Assembly: GCA_004376575.1 (NCBI GenBank)
Contig: SOJN01000010.1
Span: 1-64,000 of the forward strand
Length of the DNA stretch: 64,000 bases
Source of the DNA: a candidate division TA06 bacterium
Lineage (GTDB): Bacteria; Hydrothermota; DG-26; E44-bin18
Direction of reading: 5' to 3'
Shown piece after piece: positions 23,285 through 32,587 of the stretch (position 1 is the first letter of the stretch; each line of letters starts with the position of its first letter). The notes beneath the pieces were generated by a model. That model saw only the letters and a program-made list of their open reading frames with translations, had not been told where the DNA came from and made no database searches. The position numbers and the translations under genes were made by a program.

Positions 23285-23968
23285 GTGCCGACAATTGAGA
23301 TGCCGGTACCTGTTTTTGCCATAGTAGGCAGGTCAGGGAGCGGGAAGACAAAGTTCATTGAAAGTCTGATTCCTGAGCTCAGGTCACGGGGCCTCAGGGT
23401 GGCCTATGTGAAGCACTGCCACAAGGGATTCAGTCTCAACCACCGGGAAAAAGATTCTGGCAGGGTTTCAGAGGCTGGCGCAGAGGTTGTGGTTCTAGTT
23501 TCACCAGAGAGAACAGCCACAATAGAGAGAAGGGGCAATACACTCTCTGAACTGGTAAAGGAACTCGCCTCAAAGGCTGATATTGTTGTGGCAGAGGGCT
23601 TTAAGGCTGAGCCCATCCAGAAGATCGAGGTCTTCAGATCTGAGCTAGGTGGTCCTCTTGTGTGTGGTTCTGATCCGGATCTTTTGGCTGTAATTTCAGA
23701 TGAGGCGGTTGCTATAGATTTGCCCACGTTTGGGTCTGAAAAGGCAAAAGAGGTTGTGGATTTTCTGGAGGCAGCGATAATGGGGAAGAATGAGTTGGAA
23801 GCAGAGGTTGAACTAGAGGTGGATGGTTCACCTGTCGAAATGAAAGGCTTCGTGAAGTCGGTGATTTCTGAAACAGTGATTGCTATAGTTTCCACTTTGA
23901 GAGGAGTGGGGGAGCCGATTGAAATCAAATTGAGAATCAAGAAAGGAAAGGGAGGTGGTAAGGCCTGA
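23285..23968 (+). CDS. mobB: Molybdopterin-guanine dinucleotide biosynthesis protein MobB
   Basis: A 227-residue P-loop protein that assists MobA in making the MGD form of the molybdenum cofactor. Walker A is GRSGSGKT (residues 15-22), followed by VAYVKHCHKGF and DSGRVSEAGA typical of MobB, and VVAEGFKAEPIQKIEVFR. The last ~55 residues form a charged extension (ELEAEVELEVDG) of unknown role. Start GTG, or ATG five codons on. First gene of the formate dehydrogenase operon; fdhA follows after 55 bp. Confidence 0.9.
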   Translation: MPTIEMPVPVFAIVGRSGSGKTKFIESLIPELRSRGLRVAYVKHCHKGFSLNHREKDSGRVSEAGAEVVVLVSPERTATIERRGNTLSELVKELASKADIVVAEGFKAEPIQKIEVFRSELGGPLVCGSDPDLLAVISDEAVAIDLPTFGSEKAKEVVDFLEAAIMGKNELEAEVELEVDGSPVEMKGFVKSVISETVIAIVSTLRGVGEPIEIKLRIKKGKGGGKA

Positions 23969-24023: not shown

Positions 24024-26990
24024 ATGAAGGTTACAAGAAGGAGTTTCTTAAAGTTGACTGGCGGAACACTCGCAGCCGCTACAGTCGCCAACCTGGGCTT
24101 TTTGAAAAAGCGCGCGTATGCAAAAGGCCCGGCTGAGCTGAAAATAAAGTACGCGAGGGAGACCACATCCATCTGTCCATATTGCGCAGTTGGTTGTGGT
24201 CTAATTGCTCATGCCAGTGGAGGCAAGATAATCAACCTCGAAGGTGACCCCGAGCATCCCATCAATGAGGGAAGCCTTTGTTCCAAGGGGAGTGCTCTTT
24301 TCCAGGTGGCCAACAACGAAAAGCGCCTTAGAAAAGTGATGTACAGGGCGCCGTACTCCAATAAATGGGAAACAAAGACTTGGGATTGGGCCCTGGACAA
24401 GATTGCCGCCAACATGAAGAAGACCAGAGACGACACCTTCGTGACCAAAGATAAGAAGGGCAGAGTGGTCAACAGGAACGAAGGTACAGCCTGCCTTGGC
24501 GGAGCTGCTCTGGACAACGAAGAGTGTTATCTCTACTCCAAATTCGCCAGAACACTTGGTGTTGTGTACTTAGAACACCAAGCCCGCATATGACACTCTT
24601 CTACCGTCGCCAGTTTGGCGGAAAGTTTCGGTAGAGGGGCAATGACTAACCACTGGATCGATATTCGTAATTCGGATTGCATCATGATAATCGGCAGCAA
24701 TGCCGCCGAGAACCATCCGATTTCGTTCAAATGGGTCACCAAGGCGATAGACAAGGGAGCGACTCTGATAAGTGTGGACCCCAGGTTCACACGAACCTCT
24801 TCAAAGGCTCATATCTATGCACCGATTCGTTCTGGTACTGACATCGCTTTTATCGGTGGCATTATCAATTACTGTTTTTCCAATAAGCTCTACAACAAAG
24901 AGTACGTCGTCAACTACACGAATGGAGCGCACCTGATCAACTCCGGTTACAAGCTCAACGACGGGCTCTTCAGTGGCTTCAGCCGTGGTAAGAGAGCTTA
25001 TGACAAGTCCTCGTGGCAGTATCAAAAGGACGCTAAGGGCATACCCAAGCGAGACCCAGGTTTGAAGGACAAGAACTGTGTTTTCAATCTCATGAAGAAG
25101 CACTACTCTCGCTACACTCCAGAGATGGTCAGCAAGGTAGCGGGATGCCCGAAGGATGTTTTCCTGAAGGTGGCGAAGGCATACTGTGACACGGGTAAGA
25201 AGGGAAAAGTTGGAACCATAATGTATGCCATGGGAACAACTCAGCATACACACGGCACCCAGAACGTACGCAGCTACGCACTCCTACAACTCCTCCTGGG
25301 AAACATCGGACTTGCCGGCGGTGGAATCAACGCTTTGAGAGGCGAATCTAATGTTCAGGGCTCGACCGACCACTGCCTGTTGTTCCACATAATTCCGGGG
25401 TATCTCAAGACCCCGAGGGCAGACAATGTCAGCCTGAAAGCCTATTTGGAGAAGTGGACACCGAAGTCCAAAGATGCAAGGAGTGTGAACTACTGGAAGA
25501 ACCTTCCGAAGTTCACGGTCAGTTTGCTCAAGGCTTTCTTTGGAAAAGCTGCAACGAAGGCTAACGATTTCGCCTATGCATACCTGCCCAAAATAGAGGG
25601 GAACTATTCTCACATCGCTATGTTCGAAAAGATGTATGAGGGCGGGATCAAAGGGCTCTTCATACTCGGGCAGAACCCGGCGGTTTCTGGGCCCAATGCT
25701 AGGATGGAAAAGAAGGCAATGGAGAACCTGGATTGGCTTGTGGCTGCCGATCTCTGGTCTACTGAGACTGCCAGTTTCTGGAAAGGGCCAGAAGCCAATG
25801 CCAAGAAGATAAAGACCGAGGTGTTCCTATTGCCTGCTGCTTCTTCAGTTGAAAAAGAAGGTTCTATTACAAACTCCGGTAGATGGGGACAGTGGCGCTA
25901 CAAGGCCGTAAACCCGCCCGGCGATGCAAAAGACGACCTCTACATTCTGAGCGGGGTCTTCACCAGACTGAAGAACCTCTACAAGAAAAAGGGAGGCAAG
26001 TACCCGGATCCTATCCTCGACTGCGCCTGGAACTACGGTGAACATCCAGATCCTCACATGGTCGCAAAGGAAATAAACGGCTATGACTTGAAGACAGGGA
26101 AACTTTTGGCGAACTTCACCAAGCTCAAGAGTGATGGGACGACCTCTAGTGGCAATTGGCTATACTCGGGCAGTTACAATGAGGGTATAAACATGATGGC
26201 TCGCAGAGGCAAGGAGGATCCGACTGGCATCGGCCTCTATCCTAACTGGTCCTGGTGCTGGCCCGTGAACAGACGGATCATTTACAACAGGGCCTCCTGC
26301 GACCTCAAGGGTAAGCCGTGGGACTCCAGACACCCGGTCATAAAGTGGGACGGGACCAGGTGGGTCGGCGACGTTCCTGATTACGGGAAGACGGTTCCAC
26401 CGGAGAAGGGTGTTGGAGCATTCATAATGAAGCCAGAAGGCTATGCGAGGCTGTTTGGAATGGGTCTCAAGGATGGGCCCTTCCCTGAGCACTATGAGCC
26501 GCTTGAGAGTCCGGTCAAGAATCTTCTGTCCGGCACTCAGAACAGTCCGGTGATAGTGGTCTGGGGTTGTGCGATGGATTGCGTGGGTACATCCAAGGAC
26601 TATCCGATAGTCGCGACTACCTACAGGGTGACCGAGCACTGGCAGGCTGGAGCGATGACCAGAAACCTTCCTTGGCTTACGGAGCTCATGCCGGATATGT
26701 TTATCGAAATGAGTAAATCTCTTGCCAAGGCAAAGGGAGTAAAGAACGGAAGTATGGTCAAGGTCATCACGGCACGTGGCGAAATAACTGCCTATGCGCT
26801 GGTCACAGACAGGTTCAAGCCTTTCAAACTGAACGGGAAGATGGTCGAGGAGATAGGGATGCCCTGGCACTATGGTTATGAAGGGATCTGCTGCGGTGCT
26901 ACTGCAAATGACCTTACACCGCATGTGGGTGATGGAAACACCATGATCCCTGAGTACAAGGCATTCCTTTGTGACATCAAAAGGGCTTGA
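24024..26990 (+). CDS. fdhA: Selenocysteine-containing, Tat-exported formate dehydrogenase alpha subunit
   Basis: A 988-residue molybdopterin-bisMGD oxidoreductase that oxidises formate to CO2. It must be read through TGA 24591-24593 as Sec190: the flanks LEHQARI and HSSTVASLAESFGRGAMTNHW match the active site of FdnG-type enzymes, where Sec ligates Mo. A Tat signal (TRRSFLK, residues 4-10) predicts a periplasmic location. Cys51, Cys54, Cys58 and Cys86 bind one [4Fe-4S] cluster. The C-terminal MGD-binding domain ends with ICCGATANDLTPHVGDG, as in FdnG. ATG has GGGGGG upstream and fits the signal peptide; an in-frame ATG 23 codons earlier does not. Length is close to FdnG (about 1015). Confidence 0.95.
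24594..24639 (+). promoter_or_regulatory. Bacterial SECIS element in fdhA
   Basis: Directly after the UGA, CTCTTCTACCG (24596-24606) pairs over 11 bp with CGGTAGAGGGG (24629-24639). An unpaired T at 24607 leads to an apical stem CGCCA/TGGCG with a GTT loop (24613-24615). Counting the U of UGA as 1, the bulged U is nucleotide 17 and the loop GU is 23-24, the same positions that SelB recognises in the E. coli fdhF SECIS. Confidence 0.9.
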
Positions 26991-27009: not shown

Positions 27010-27813
27010 ATGGCCGATATGGCTTTGTACATAGATCCAAGCAAATGTATGGCCTGCAGAGCTTGCCAGGTGGCCTGCAAGCAGTGGAATGGTCTTCCTG
27101 CAGAGCGGACCACCTTCTTCAGTGGACCCGGCTATCAGAACCCCGGCGATCTTTCCCCAAAGACCTGGACTCTGGTCAAGTTCTTCAAAGAGGAGTATGT
27201 CGGAGACAAACTGGAGTGGCGTTTCAGGAAGGTTCAGTGCATGCACTGCGAGGACCCCGGCTGTGTGACCGTTTGTCCCGTCTCACCCAAGGCGGCCACG
27301 CGCGATGAGAAGTGGGGCTTTGTGTACATCGACCACAGCCGGTGCATTGGCTGCGGCGCGTGCATGATAGGATGTCCTTTTGGCATTCCGCACGTAGACG
27401 AGGCAATGGATGAGCCCAAATCCAAGAAATGCACAATGTGCAACGACAGGGTTGTGAGCGGGCTCGTGCCAGCGTGCGCCAAGGCCTGTCCCACAGGTGC
27501 GGTCAGCTACGGGACGAGAAAAGCGATGATGGTCAAGGCTGAAGCCAGGGTCAAGGAGCTTAAGAACATGGGGAAGAAACCGTACATCTACGGGAAAAAG
27601 GAGATGAAAGGTCTCCATTCGATATACGTTCTTCCCGAAGGCGTCGACAAGTATGATCTGCCCAAGAATCCGAAGATTCCTGAGGATGTCGGCTATCTTC
27701 ACGAGCTCCTGGGGCCGATGCTCGGAAGCTCCAAGATCTCTGCCGCGCTAGTTGGCATGGCAATAGGCTGGCTGAGGAAGAGAGGGGCCAAGAAGGAAAA
27801 GGCATCCGCCTAA
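27010..27813 (+). CDS. fdhB: Formate dehydrogenase iron-sulfur (beta) subunit
   Basis: A 267-residue electron-transfer subunit of the FdnH/HybA type with four [4Fe-4S] motifs: CMACRACQVAC (from Cys13), CMHCEDPGCVTVCP, CIGCGACMIGCPFG and CTMCNDRV...ACAKACP. It would pass electrons from FdhA towards the membrane. The C-terminus has one moderately hydrophobic segment (ISAALVGMAIGWL) that could anchor it, as in FdnH. It follows fdhA by 19 bp with GGGAGG. No cytochrome b (gamma) subunit follows, so the membrane partner must be elsewhere or different. Confidence 0.95.
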   Translation: MADMALYIDPSKCMACRACQVACKQWNGLPAERTTFFSGPGYQNPGDLSPKTWTLVKFFKEEYVGDKLEWRFRKVQCMHCEDPGCVTVCPVSPKAATRDEKWGFVYIDHSRCIGCGACMIGCPFGIPHVDEAMDEPKSKKCTMCNDRVVSGLVPACAKACPTGAVSYGTRKAMMVKAEARVKELKNMGKKPYIYGKKEMKGLHSIYVLPEGVDKYDLPKNPKIPEDVGYLHELLGPMLGSSKISAALVGMAIGWLRKRGAKKEKASA

Positions 27814-27896: not shown

Positions 27897-28748
27897 ATGG
27901 CTCTCAGCAGCGCCACCAAGGTGAGATCTGAACTGGAAATATACAAGGAGAAGACCGGGGAGAACGCTGATGTATTCGATTTCTTCCATTCGGTACTGAA
28001 GGTCCAGAACAGGACGTACAAGAATTCCAGGGTATCATTCCGCGTCAGCATTGCCGCGCTTCAGGAACGCTTGAAAAACTCTCAGAGGCTGGTAAAGCCA
28101 CGAGAGATTTCCATCCCCAGGCGCGAATACCTGGAGACACTCAAGAGGATTGAAGGCGAGATCAACAAAAGGTGGATGGTAGGAAAAAGGCTCAAGCAAT
28201 TTTCAAGACTTGAGGAACTTAACAGCGATAAATTCGCCGGCTTCATTAGCGGCATGGTTTCAGGGAAATCGGGCTACTTGAAAGGCCTACCGACAAAGAC
28301 ACATACAAAGAAGGCTACCCTTCAATTTGCGCTGGAAAGTGCGGCCATGCCCTTCATGGCAAAGATCTCTTCGGATGTTTCCAAAAAAGTCGACCTATCT
28401 CTCTGGCAAAAAGGGACGTGTCCAGTTTGCGGAAGATATCCCGTGGTTGCGAAGATGAGAAAGGATGACGGTGCTAGATTTTTGTATTGCGGATTTTGCG
28501 CAACTCAATGGCGCTTTCCGAGGCTCACCTGCGTGAACTGTGGAAATACAGATCAGTCCACCATGAAGTACTTCTTTCCTGAAGCGGACAGGGGACACAG
28601 GGTCGATGTGTGTGATGTGTGCAAGAAGTCGGTGAGGACGACAGATGAGAGAGCCCTGGGAAGGGAGACGTTCTTTGAGGTGGAGAACTGGGTGACATCT
28701 TATCTAAATGATGTGGCCATACGTGAAGGCTACAAGCCTCTCGGATAG
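27897..28748 (+). CDS. fdhE: Formate dehydrogenase accessory protein FdhE
   Basis: A 283-residue cytoplasmic factor needed for formate dehydrogenase maturation. The C-terminal rubredoxin-like part contains four CxxC pairs: CPVC, CGFC, CVNC and CDVC, which bind iron in the family. The N-terminal helical region (1-170) is less conserved, as usual. ATG after CGGAGG. It lies immediately after the attenuator hairpin and 41 bp before fdhD. Confidence 0.92.
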   Translation: MALSSATKVRSELEIYKEKTGENADVFDFFHSVLKVQNRTYKNSRVSFRVSIAALQERLKNSQRLVKPREISIPRREYLETLKRIEGEINKRWMVGKRLKQFSRLEELNSDKFAGFISGMVSGKSGYLKGLPTKTHTKKATLQFALESAAMPFMAKISSDVSKKVDLSLWQKGTCPVCGRYPVVAKMRKDDGARFLYCGFCATQWRFPRLTCVNCGNTDQSTMKYFFPEADRGHRVDVCDVCKKSVRTTDERALGRETFFEVENWVTSYLNDVAIREGYKPLG

Positions 28749-28789: not shown

Positions 28790-29572
28790 ATGATAAAAGA
28801 CTCTTCTGAGTTCAAGACTATCCGGTATGAAAAGGGCGAACCTGCAACTCGAACAGATATGGTCCCGAGAGAGTCATCAATCGATATCTATCTTTGTGGG
28901 ACAAGACTCGTCACTCTTCAGGCGTCGCCGAATCAGTTGATCGAACTGGCGGTTGGCTTCCTTCTTTCCGAGGGGTTGCTTGAGACGCTCTCTGAATATG
29001 AGACTGCATCGATTGATGCTGAAAGCAAAGAAGTAAGGGTGGAGGCAAAGAACCGGTCAAAGGTCCTTTCCAGACTCCTCGACAAGGGAGATGTCATAAG
29101 AACGTCAGGTTGTAGCAGGGGTATGAGCTTTGGCGGGTATGACATGATAGGAAAGGTGAACTCTGACCTCTCTGTCTCAACGGAGAAGATCAAGACGATG
29201 ACCAGAGAGATGCTCAAGGCAGCGGATCTCCACAACGCGTGTGGAGGCGTTCACTGTTCTGCACTGGTCAAAGGCTCAGAGGTCATCTCCATGAGTGAGG
29301 ACATTGGCAGGCACAACACGATCGACAAGATAGTTGGGCAATGTTCCTTAAAGGGCATTGACATGTCAGAAGGTTTCCTCCTGACCACAGGAAGGATATC
29401 CTCTGAAATGGTCGCCAAATGTGCGAGGTCCAGAATTCCAGTTATCGCCTCCATGACCTCGCCCACAGATCTGGCTATCCGCATTGCAGACAAGCTGGGT
29501 GTGACAGTTGTGGGATATGTCCGGGGAAACAGAATAACCGTCTACACTCACGCGGATAGGATAACGAACTAA
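28790..29572 (+). CDS. fdhD: Formate dehydrogenase accessory sulfurtransferase FdhD
   Basis: A 260-residue FdhD, which passes sulfur from a cysteine desulfurase to the bisMGD of FdhA and is essential for activity. Diagnostic segments: LAVGFLLSEGLL (as ELAVGFLLSEG), THNACGGVHCSAL region (NACGGVHCSAL), SEDIGRHNTIDKIVG and LTTGRISSEMV. The loop that in E. coli holds the CxxC pair reads TSGCSRGMSF, with only the first Cys. ATG; the upstream spacing is 41 bp. Confidence 0.93.
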   Translation: MIKDSSEFKTIRYEKGEPATRTDMVPRESSIDIYLCGTRLVTLQASPNQLIELAVGFLLSEGLLETLSEYETASIDAESKEVRVEAKNRSKVLSRLLDKGDVIRTSGCSRGMSFGGYDMIGKVNSDLSVSTEKIKTMTREMLKAADLHNACGGVHCSALVKGSEVISMSEDIGRHNTIDKIVGQCSLKGIDMSEGFLLTTGRISSEMVAKCARSRIPVIASMTSPTDLAIRIADKLGVTVVGYVRGNRITVYTHADRITN

Positions 29573-29769: not shown

Positions 29770-30372
29770 GTGGAAGCATTCGTACTGGCTGGCGGAGAAA
29801 GCAAAAGGTTTGGGTCCAATAAGGCTCTCTACAGGGTTGGCGACGAGACTCTGCTTGAGATACTGTTTAGAAGGATGTCCGATCTCTTCGATAAAGTTCG
29901 AGTACTGACAAAAGACAGCAGTCTGTTCAAGGGTTTGGACTTCGAAGTCCTGGATGACGTGAGAGAAGAGTGCTGTCCACTCTCGGGCATCTATTCAGGG
30001 CTGAGGTATCTCAGAAACGGGAAGGCGTTCTTTCTGGCTTGCGATTTGCCGCTTGTGCAGAGCAGGCTGGTCAACCATATTGTGGAGCAGAGCCAGGGGT
30101 TCGATGCCGCTGTGCCCCGGACTGCCATGGGATTTGAACCTCTTTGTGCGGTGTATGATGTCGCTTGTTTGGACGCTATCGAGGACCAATTTGTTTCCGG
30201 GAATCTGAGGGTTGTTTCGTTTTTGAATAATGTGAAGACAAAAGTAGTTGAAGAAGATGAACTGAAGAGGTATGACAAAAAGCTGGTTTCTTTTGTTAAT
30301 GTCAATACTCCTGATACTCTGGGTATGGTCCTTGAACTGCTAGCCAGAGAGAAAGGAAGACGATGCTCATAG
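29770..30372 (+). CDS. mobA: Molybdenum cofactor guanylyltransferase MobA
   Basis: A 200-residue nucleotidyltransferase that adds GMP to molybdopterin to form MGD, the cofactor used by FdhA. The GTP-binding start is FVLAGGESKRFGSNKAL, with LACDLPLV as the metal-binding Asp loop and FVNVNTPDTL near the end. Start is GTG with AAGGAG upstream. It overlaps moaA by 10 bp. Confidence 0.93.
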   Translation: MEAFVLAGGESKRFGSNKALYRVGDETLLEILFRRMSDLFDKVRVLTKDSSLFKGLDFEVLDDVREECCPLSGIYSGLRYLRNGKAFFLACDLPLVQSRLVNHIVEQSQGFDAAVPRTAMGFEPLCAVYDVACLDAIEDQFVSGNLRVVSFLNNVKTKVVEEDELKRYDKKLVSFVNVNTPDTLGMVLELLAREKGRRCS

Positions 30373-31337
30373 ACTACTGCGGAAGAAAGGTCGATTACCT
30401 CAGACTCTCCGTCACAGACAGATGCAACTTGAGTTGCACATATTGTTCTCCCGGACATATCGAATGGCAGAGGAGGGGCGAGATTCTCTCCTATGAGGAA
30501 ATGGTGACGCTTATCGACATTACTGCATCAATGGGTATCAAGAGGGTCCGCTTAACCGGTGGTGAACCTCTGCTGAGAAGAGATTTCGTTTCTTTCGTAG
30601 AGCAGATAAGAGCACTCGACAGGCCGCTTGACCTTTGCTTGACGACAAATGGTATTCTCCTCCCTGACCTTGCAGGAGAGCTGTTGCGGGCAGGGGTCAC
30701 AAGAGTGAATATTAGCCTCGATACTCTTGATGAGGCAAAGTATGAGAGGATCACGGGCTCGAAGGCGCATAAAAAGGTCCTGAACGGCATCGAGGTTGCC
30801 CTGCGCCTTGGGTTCGATTCTGTGAAGGTCAACGTCGTTTTGATCAAAGGTTTGAATGATGATGAGATAGATTCCTTTGTCCGCATGGCTGAATTCAGGC
30901 CCCTTACCGTAAGGTTCATAGAGTTCATGCCCGCTGGACTTGCCGATTGGAACATAGACAGACTAATGCCGTCCCGAGAGATCCTCGAGAGATTCAAGAG
31001 GAGATACGGTGATATTGAACAGGTGAAGGCCGACGGGGGCGGTCCATCTCTCGACTACCGATTTCCAGGGATGGTGGGTAAGGTAGGTTTCATATCGTCC
31101 GTTACGGAACCTTCTTGTGAAATGTGCAATAGGTTGAGAGTCACTGCTGAAGGTAGGCTTAGACCCTGTCTTTTTTCTGAGATCGAGTTTGACATCAAGA
31201 CGGCGCTCAGGACGACCAATGCCAGAGATGAAGTGAAGATGGTGATACTTGATGCGCTCCGTGCCAAGCCGGAAGGCCACTTACCGTTGGGTTCGTGTCG
31301 GCGGACGGAGACGCCCATGGCGCAGATAGGCGGTTGA
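30363..31337 (+). CDS. moaA: GTP 3',8-cyclase MoaA
   Basis: A 324-residue radical SAM enzyme for the first step of molybdopterin synthesis (GTP to 3',8-cyclo-GTP, then cPMP with MoaC). The N-terminal SAM cluster is C21-x3-C25-x2-C28 (CNLSCTYC). The C-terminal GTP-binding cluster is CEMCNRLRVTAEGRLRPC. The protein ends in the characteristic GG (MAQIGG). The start overlaps mobA. moaC, moaD and moaE are not in this window. Confidence 0.96.
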   Translation: MLIDYCGRKVDYLRLSVTDRCNLSCTYCSPGHIEWQRRGEILSYEEMVTLIDITASMGIKRVRLTGGEPLLRRDFVSFVEQIRALDRPLDLCLTTNGILLPDLAGELLRAGVTRVNISLDTLDEAKYERITGSKAHKKVLNGIEVALRLGFDSVKVNVVLIKGLNDDEIDSFVRMAEFRPLTVRFIEFMPAGLADWNIDRLMPSREILERFKRRYGDIEQVKADGGGPSLDYRFPGMVGKVGFISSVTEPSCEMCNRLRVTAEGRLRPCLFSEIEFDIKTALRTTNARDEVKMVILDALRAKPEGHLPLGSCRRTETPMAQIGG

Positions 31338-31351
31338 CCCTCCGCTGACGC

Positions 31352-31446
31352 TTCGGGAAGTACAAGGAACGAAGTACAAAGGTCGAAGTACGAGGAGACA
31401 GGCAACTGCCTCCTCTTTGTACTTTGCTCCTCGAACTTCGTACTTT
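31352..31446. repeat. Long imperfect hairpin between convergent moaA and prenyltransferase genes
   Basis: Multiple AAGTAC/GTACTT units (GAACGAAGTACAAAGG on the left, CTCGAACTTCGTACTTT on the right) surround an inner GAGGAG...CTCCTC stem with CAG-GCAA-CTG at the tip. It can fold in either direction and probably serves as a bidirectional terminator. GTACTTCG-type text recurs at 36460, 50462 and 51310. Confidence 0.6.
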
Positions 31447-32587
31447 AGTTGCGCATTGTCTTTAACAGAAGCTTTGACAGGGAAAGAACCGCAAAGGCAG
31501 TAACAGCCACTGACACGACAGCTCCTGCGATGTACAACAGGAGGGAAGTCCCTTGCACATGATATAGAAAGAAGCTTCCAAGAGCGCCAAGGAGATTGGA
31601 AGCCCCAACAATGTAATCCTGGAGAGACTTCCTTAAGAAAATATCAACTACGATCGCCCCGAACACAAATATCAGGTACATTGAAGCGACGTTGAAGGCT
31701 CCCATTGACCTTGCCTTGTTTGTTGGATCTTTCACCAGGGCAATCGTTGACAGAAGGGCTACTACTCCCATGGGAAGAGCTATGACCAGATAGAGCCAGC
31801 CAAGGTCGACCATAAAGAAGAGAGCCGCCGATACTACGAACATGACGAGCGTGAACCAGAAACCCATCCATGCCGCTGCAACGGGTGTGGGGTAGAAGAA
31901 AAATGCCTTCTTCTCAGTTATCAGTCCTCCATCCTTGGTTCTTATTGGATGAGAAGGTGAGTGGACCATTATGTGAGCGGACTGCCAGATAATCGCCGTC
32001 ACAGCAAGAACCCATGGTATCGGACTGGTAAACAGTGTCTCTGGAGAGAAGGCAGCCCAACCCCCTAGTGGAAACAGCGCGATAATAAAGGGGAGCGATA
32101 GGTATCCCACGACGTCCCGGAGGAACATTGTGTATACAATGCCAAGGGCAAGTGCTATACACAGAACTGTCGTTGCGAGAGCGTTGAACGTAAACCACAC
32201 AACTGCAATTGACATTGCCATAAGGATCAGACTGTATATCAGTGCAAGGCCTGAGTGAATTCTTGCTGTGGGTATTGGCCTGTCTGGCCATACGTCCAGG
32301 TCCCTCATCCTGTCCCACCAGTCGTTGAATGTGTGTATGCCTGCCGTTGCTATGCATGCAGCAGCAGAGCCCAGGATAACCAGAAGCAGATGAGGCATCC
32401 TGCCGTTTGCCAGTATGGCGCCGGCGCCAGTAATAGGAGGCGCCATGGTCAGTAAGAACGGCCTTGTTATCTCGAAATAACTGAAGACTCGTTCAAAGAA
32501 TGAATACCTTTCCTTTCTGCCAATTCCTCCGTGGCCCATCAGTCCTCTTAGCAGTGGCCCGGCGTGTTCCGCGATTACAGTTCCCAA
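31445..32587 (-). CDS. UbiA-superfamily prenyltransferase
   Basis: A 380-residue integral membrane protein with about nine hydrophobic segments. FNDWWDRMRDLDVWPDRPIPT matches the first Asp-rich (NDxxDxxxD) motif and following RPI of UbiA enzymes, which prenylate quinone, heme or lipid precursors. I cannot find the usual second DxxxD motif, and the protein is about 90 residues longer than UbiA or MenA. The start is uncertain: TTG is used here and ATG at 32539 is possible. A perfect AAGGAGG (32624-32630) sits six bases before an in-frame ACG. Location beside the formate dehydrogenase genes suggests a quinone role, but this is inference. Confidence 0.75.
   Translation of the reverse strand: MGTVIAEHAGPLLRGLMGHGGIGRKERYSFFERVFSYFEITRPFLLTMAPPITGAGAILANGRMPHLLLVILGSAAACIATAGIHTFNDWWDRMRDLDVWPDRPIPTARIHSGLALIYSLILMAMSIAVVWFTFNALATTVLCIALALGIVYTMFLRDVVGYLSLPFIIALFPLGGWAAFSPETLFTSPIPWVLAVTAIIWQSAHIMVHSPSHPIRTKDGGLITEKKAFFFYPTPVAAAWMGFWFTLVMFVVSAALFFMVDLGWLYLVIALPMGVVALLSTIALVKDPTNKARSMGAFNVASMYLIFVFGAIVVDIFLRKSLQDYIVGASNLLGALGSFFLYHVQGTSLLLYIAGAVVSVAVTAFAVLSLSKLLLKTMRN

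Follow-up and report, generated by a model that had tools for sequence, protein, structure and literature searches.

The window, by which the entire analysed stretch of 64,000 nucleotides is meant, harbors a formate dehydrogenase gene cluster on its forward strand (Table 1). Beyond fdhD, the ORFs 29770-30372 and 30363-31337 are probably mobA and moaA, as judged by reading their translations only. In the same manner, the reverse-strand ORF at 31445-32587, which adjoins the cluster, was found to resemble a UbiA-type prenyltransferase.

Table 1. Genes and RNA features of the formate dehydrogenase cluster, in window coordinates.
Feature	Position	Strand	Description and evidence
mobB, molybdopterin-guanine dinucleotide biosynthesis	23285..23968	+	TIGR00176, 125 bits (cut-off 76)
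fdhA, predicted Sec-containing formate dehydrogenase alpha subunit	24024..26990	+	988 residues, Sec190; TIGR01553, Pfam and PDB matches
In-frame UGA, predicted Sec190, Mo/W ligand position	24591..24593	+	Alignment with E. coli, codons of relatives, sel genes
Bacterial SECIS hairpin, predicted	24596..24639	+	Lower helix 24596-24606 with 24629-24639; 7-nt 3′ bulge 24622-24628
SECIS upper stem-loop, predicted, nt 17-31 from the UGA	24607..24621	+	Loop G23-U24 at 24613-24614
fdhB, iron-sulfur beta subunit	27010..27813	+	TIGR01582, 218 bits (below the cut-off of 334.7); Fer4 domains
fdhE, formate dehydrogenase accessory protein	27897..28748	+	Pfam FdhE_central, 45 bits (cut-off 27); TIGR01562, 49 bits (below cut-off)
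fdhD, formate dehydrogenase accessory sulfurtransferase	28790..29572	+	TIGR00129, 204 bits (cut-off 141)

The fdhA frame extends from the ATG at 24024 to the stop codon at 26988-26990 and contains a single internal stop, the TGA at codon 190. Mechanical ORF calling breaks the gene at this point into ORFs of 212 and 791 amino acids. When the TGA is read through, the product matches the TIGR01553 profile (formate dehydrogenase-N alpha) with 1400.3 bits (cut-off 814.2), and the match runs unbroken from residue 3 to 986 of 989, thus over the full length of the joined protein. It is the sole TIGR01553 gene found in the host genome. The domains Molybdopterin, Molybdop_Fe4S4 and Molydop_binding, i.e. 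the three domains of Mo/W-bis-MGD oxidoreductases, are all detected by Pfam, and the N-terminus displays a twin-arginine signal (MKVTRRSFLK...AYA). An earlier note on this DNA had expected that automated annotation will split the gene, which does not hold in general, as the RefSeq entries for E. coli fdnG and fdhF are single CDS features across the UGA. The present analysis is of value in giving the right model of a gene that naive ORF calling cuts in two.

Among proteins of known structure, the closest likeness is found with the Desulfovibrio FdhAB enzymes. D. vulgaris Hildenborough Sec-formate dehydrogenase (PDB codes 6SDR, 8CM4 and 9QM0) and D. gigas W-formate dehydrogenase (1H0H) give full-length matches with 1127-1137 bits (both E = 0), and they share with the window Sec at the metal, an alpha and an Fe-S beta subunit, and no detected FdnI-type gamma subunit. 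E. coli Fdh-N FdnG (1KQF) belongs to the same TIGR01553 family and agrees with the window gene in Sec position and in SECIS register (U17, G23-U24), but scores below the Desulfovibrio enzymes (1010 bits); E. coli FdhF is a far more distant relative of the fdhA product (189.9 bits). No TIGR01583 match, indicative of an FdnI-type cytochrome b gamma subunit, was obtained in the draft genome, while the E. coli control was positive. Because of these scores and the undetected gamma subunit, two-subunit FdhAB is the better model. The earlier description of the frames flanking the TGA as one full FdnG-like protein therefore stands with respect to the single full-length protein, while the product is better called FdhAB-like.

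The TGA lies in the context ARI-U-HSSTVASLAESFGRGAMTNHW and aligns to Sec196 of E. coli FdnG and Sec140 of FdhF, which confirms its placement at the active site by the earlier note. As in both of these proteins, the residue following Sec is His (ARI-U-HS in the window, ARV-U-HG in FdnG and FdhF). Further conserved residues are the Fe-S cysteines (Cys51, Cys54, Cys58 and Cys86) and Lys88 as well as the Arg in ALRGESNVQG. In 80 loci of GTDB genomes the codon at this site is TGA in 72, TGC in 4 and TGT in 4. A separate screen covered 60 genomes including the window's own, of which only four others (G012, G018, G024 and G059) contain an fdhA covering the site; each has one TGA in fdhA and SelB above cut-off. 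SelB is also present without such an fdhA in several of the 60 genomes, and the sole same-order genome searched (G001) has neither SelB above cut-off nor such an fdhA gene. By identity and tree path the nearest fdhA relatives are from Zixibacteria, the placement of the window in the tree being otherwise weakly resolved; a Zixibacteria-type host is accordingly likely. In the accessible portions of the literature that joins Zixibacteria and selenocysteine, no description of such an fdhA was found. A scan of the window for further UGA-interrupted genes yielded no convincing candidate.

A selenocysteine reading implies the presence of selA, selB, selC and selD, as the earlier note had pointed out, and the genome search located all four above curated or gathering cut-offs. 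The host genome comprises 2.99 Mb in 150 contigs (97.4% complete, 0.9% estimated contamination). Profile searches gave 586 bits for selA, 391 bits for selB and 354 bits for selD, and a single tRNA-Sec exceeds the gathering score with 72.8 bits and is called SeC with anticodon tca (UCA) by ARAGORN. Within the window itself, Rfam at gathering thresholds reports two tRNA-Pro and neither a SECIS element nor tRNA-Sec. The sel genes reside at 21.7-32.9 kb of one contig (C123) and fdhA on another (C10), which in an assembly of 150 contigs leaves a small chance of a binning error; the low estimated contamination and the co-occurrence of fdhA and SelB in relatives argue against it.

The sel cluster (L013:3594-14905) consists of selA, selB, tRNA-Sec, an ORF adjoining the tRNA, and selD. 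The translation of the adjoining ORF, by reading only, resembles a YedF-type selenium-metabolism protein. The selD gene (L013:3594-4637, reverse strand) itself has an in-frame TGA at the active site (MTKAAG-U-AAK), followed by a stable predicted hairpin, and SelD would therefore be a second selenoprotein of the genome. Sec-containing SelD is of a known kind (PMC13188914). Together, these genes point to a little-studied bacterial lineage that employs Sec and has a SelD containing it.

Immediately 3′ of the fdhA UGA a hairpin is predicted with a minimum free energy of -22.8 kcal/mol (z = -4.4); none of 200 dinucleotide shuffles and 29 of 5000 synonymous recodings are equally stable. Its loop is GUU with G in first position, closed by A22-U26 and carried by an upper stem of 5-6 bp at a spacing of 19 nt. 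This agrees with the bacterial SECIS consensus, which requires an apical loop of 3-9 nt with a G within the first two positions, an upper stem of 4-16 bp, a distance of 16-37 nt between UGA and loop, and a minimum free energy of at most -7.5 kcal/mol (PMC13188914). Folded alone, the upper stem-loop is weaker than the whole hairpin (-6.8 to -7.1 kcal/mol).

Superposition of the numbering on the E. coli fdhF element reveals common features, namely U at 17, GU at 23-24 within the apical loop and an upper stem starting at nt 18; U17 and the loop G23-U24 are found in both E. coli genes. In fdhF, U17 and G23 contact SelB, and U17 must be bulged, held in place by pairs between 15-19 and 28-31 (PMC8659212). 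There the bulged U17 sits over the pairs 15-31 and 16-30. These pairs are absent from the predicted window fold, in which U17 instead forms a wobble pair with G31 (P = 0.91), and G16 pairs with C39 (P = 0.99) across the 7-nt 3′ bulge below U17-G31, a further difference from fdhF. Consequently, the earlier note was right about a stable hairpin with U at 17 and GU at 23-24 in the loop, and its assertion that U17 is unpaired exactly as in fdhF is not borne out by the prediction. A fold leaving U17 free costs 1.8 kcal/mol, so that SelB could still open this position.

As the hairpin is located within coding sequence, constraint on the RNA has to be separated from constraint on the protein. Conservation of U17 was rejected as evidence for a SECIS element, since this base occupies position 2 of an invariant Val codon and is thus fixed by the protein. 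The lower helix was given limited weight: it is stable in the window, but only 65% of its cells are paired across relatives. Across 38 sequences, 96% of the upper-helix cells are paired. Both partners of pair 18-30 are third-codon bases, one of a Val and one of an Ala codon, and 37 of the 38 sequences preserve the pair, as CG, UA, GC, GU, UG or AU. At two further third-codon positions, T24 and G27 occur without exception in the 73 UGA genes, compared to 3/8 and 4/8 of the Cys genes, respectively (Fisher P = 2e-6 and 4e-5, relatedness being ignored). The UGA genes tested are more stable than nearly all of their own synonymous recodings, whereas among the eight Cys genes L061 alone exceeds its recodings in stability, and does so weakly. 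Wobble bases, the compensatory pair 18-30 and fold stability thus support the view that an RNA structure linked to the UGA is under selection. Of wider use are the 73 aligned UGA genes, by which hairpin and protein constraint can be told apart at wobble positions and which, as described below, show two SECIS registers at one codon.

Other explanations of the internal TGA were considered against these data. It could be a sequencing or assembly error for TGC or TGT, since a Cys codon does occupy the site in 8 of the 80 relatives, and the earlier note had named Cys in a corrected assembly as the outcome contrary to its proposal. However, independent assemblies of related bacteria, close relatives included, show TGA at the same codon, and the window has T24 and G27, the wobble bases specific to the SECIS element, together with a stable fold, as UGA genes do and most Cys genes do not; an error of this kind is accordingly very improbable. 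A true nonsense mutation, leaving fdhA a pseudogene or two separate ORFs, would fit the mechanical ORF calls. Yet neither half amounts to a whole enzyme, the 989 codons hold no further stop or frameshift, and the UGA falls precisely at the Sec position in a genome with Sec machinery, so that we regard this explanation as even harder to sustain.

For a decoding of UGA by other means, be it a general UGA=Trp code or near-cognate readthrough, nothing was found in favor. The genome has a dedicated tRNA-Sec and SelB, relatives exchange the UGA for Cys codons only and never for Trp, and fdhA itself terminates in UGA, which consequently still functions as a stop in this host; such a decoding appears the most far-fetched of the explanations considered. 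The full-length family match, the Sec position, the hairpin and the Sec machinery in the genome support the selenoprotein assignment made by the earlier note. Taken together, fdhA most probably encodes a Sec-containing formate dehydrogenase in which SelB and Sec-tRNA(Sec), guided by the hairpin, insert Sec190 at UGA 24591 (probability about 0.96). In 2005 formate dehydrogenase was described as occurring in virtually every Sec-using prokaryote sequenced by that time, and as their most frequent selenoprotein by a wide margin (PMC1088965). Formate dehydrogenase has thus long been known as a widespread selenoprotein, and the fdhA of the window is an ordinary further example.

For FdhA, the following account of Sec insertion, metal, export, electron acceptor and direction of the reaction is inferred from sequence. 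The protein would serve as catalytic subunit of an FdhAB-type formate dehydrogenase that contains Sec and Mo/W-bis-MGD and is exported to the periplasm by the Tat route. SelA would make Sec-tRNA(Sec) with selenophosphate from SelD, and SelB carrying it would bind the hairpin just 3′ of the UGA and insert Sec190. This residue is expected to ligate the metal, which would oxidize formate (or reduce CO2), the electrons being passed onward by FdhB. The cofactor may be served by the neighboring mobB, and probably by mobA and moaA further down, while FdhD and FdhE would serve maturation.

By protein motif, the 73 UGA genes separate cleanly into an Ala-Ser/Gly-Leu class (38, including the window) and an Ala-Ala-Leu class (35). 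In the former, termed register 1, nt 18-21 pair with 27-30, all four pairs being present in 37 of 38, and the loop GU is at nt 23-24. In the latter, register 2, five pairs between 21-25 and 31-35 are formed in all members and the complete set of four register-1 pairs in none; the loop GGC at nt 27-29 is displaced by 4 nt from that of register 1. In the 34 Ala-Ala-Leu-Ala genes the third-codon bases 21, 24, 27, 30, 33 and 36 show no variation at all; those at 15, 42 and 45 vary freely. When the protein tree is labelled by register 1, register 2 and Cys, at least seven changes are required. Both patterns were searched in 45 genomes, mostly draft MAGs, and counted as sequence-pattern matches rather than identified genes: register 1 was matched in 29, register 2 in 27, and both in 11 (G062, G067, G068, G069, G071, G072, G081, G092, G098, G103 and G104).

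These patterns suggest, at odds slightly better than even in our estimate, that the fdhA SECIS element exists in two registers behind the same UGA and has switched between them repeatedly, with both present in some single genomes. One SelB would then have to accept apical loops whose positions differ by 4 nt, and in one of the two registers U17 would not be bulged. A non-exhaustive literature search returned no prior report of a register switch in fdhA; variable loop spacing of bacterial SECIS elements as such is already known (16-37 nt; PMC13188914). In one of the Cys relatives (L022:1217-4183), part of the register-1 sequence (GTCGCCGGTTTG) is retained and the stem is broken, which looks like a SECIS element decaying after a Sec-to-Cys change.
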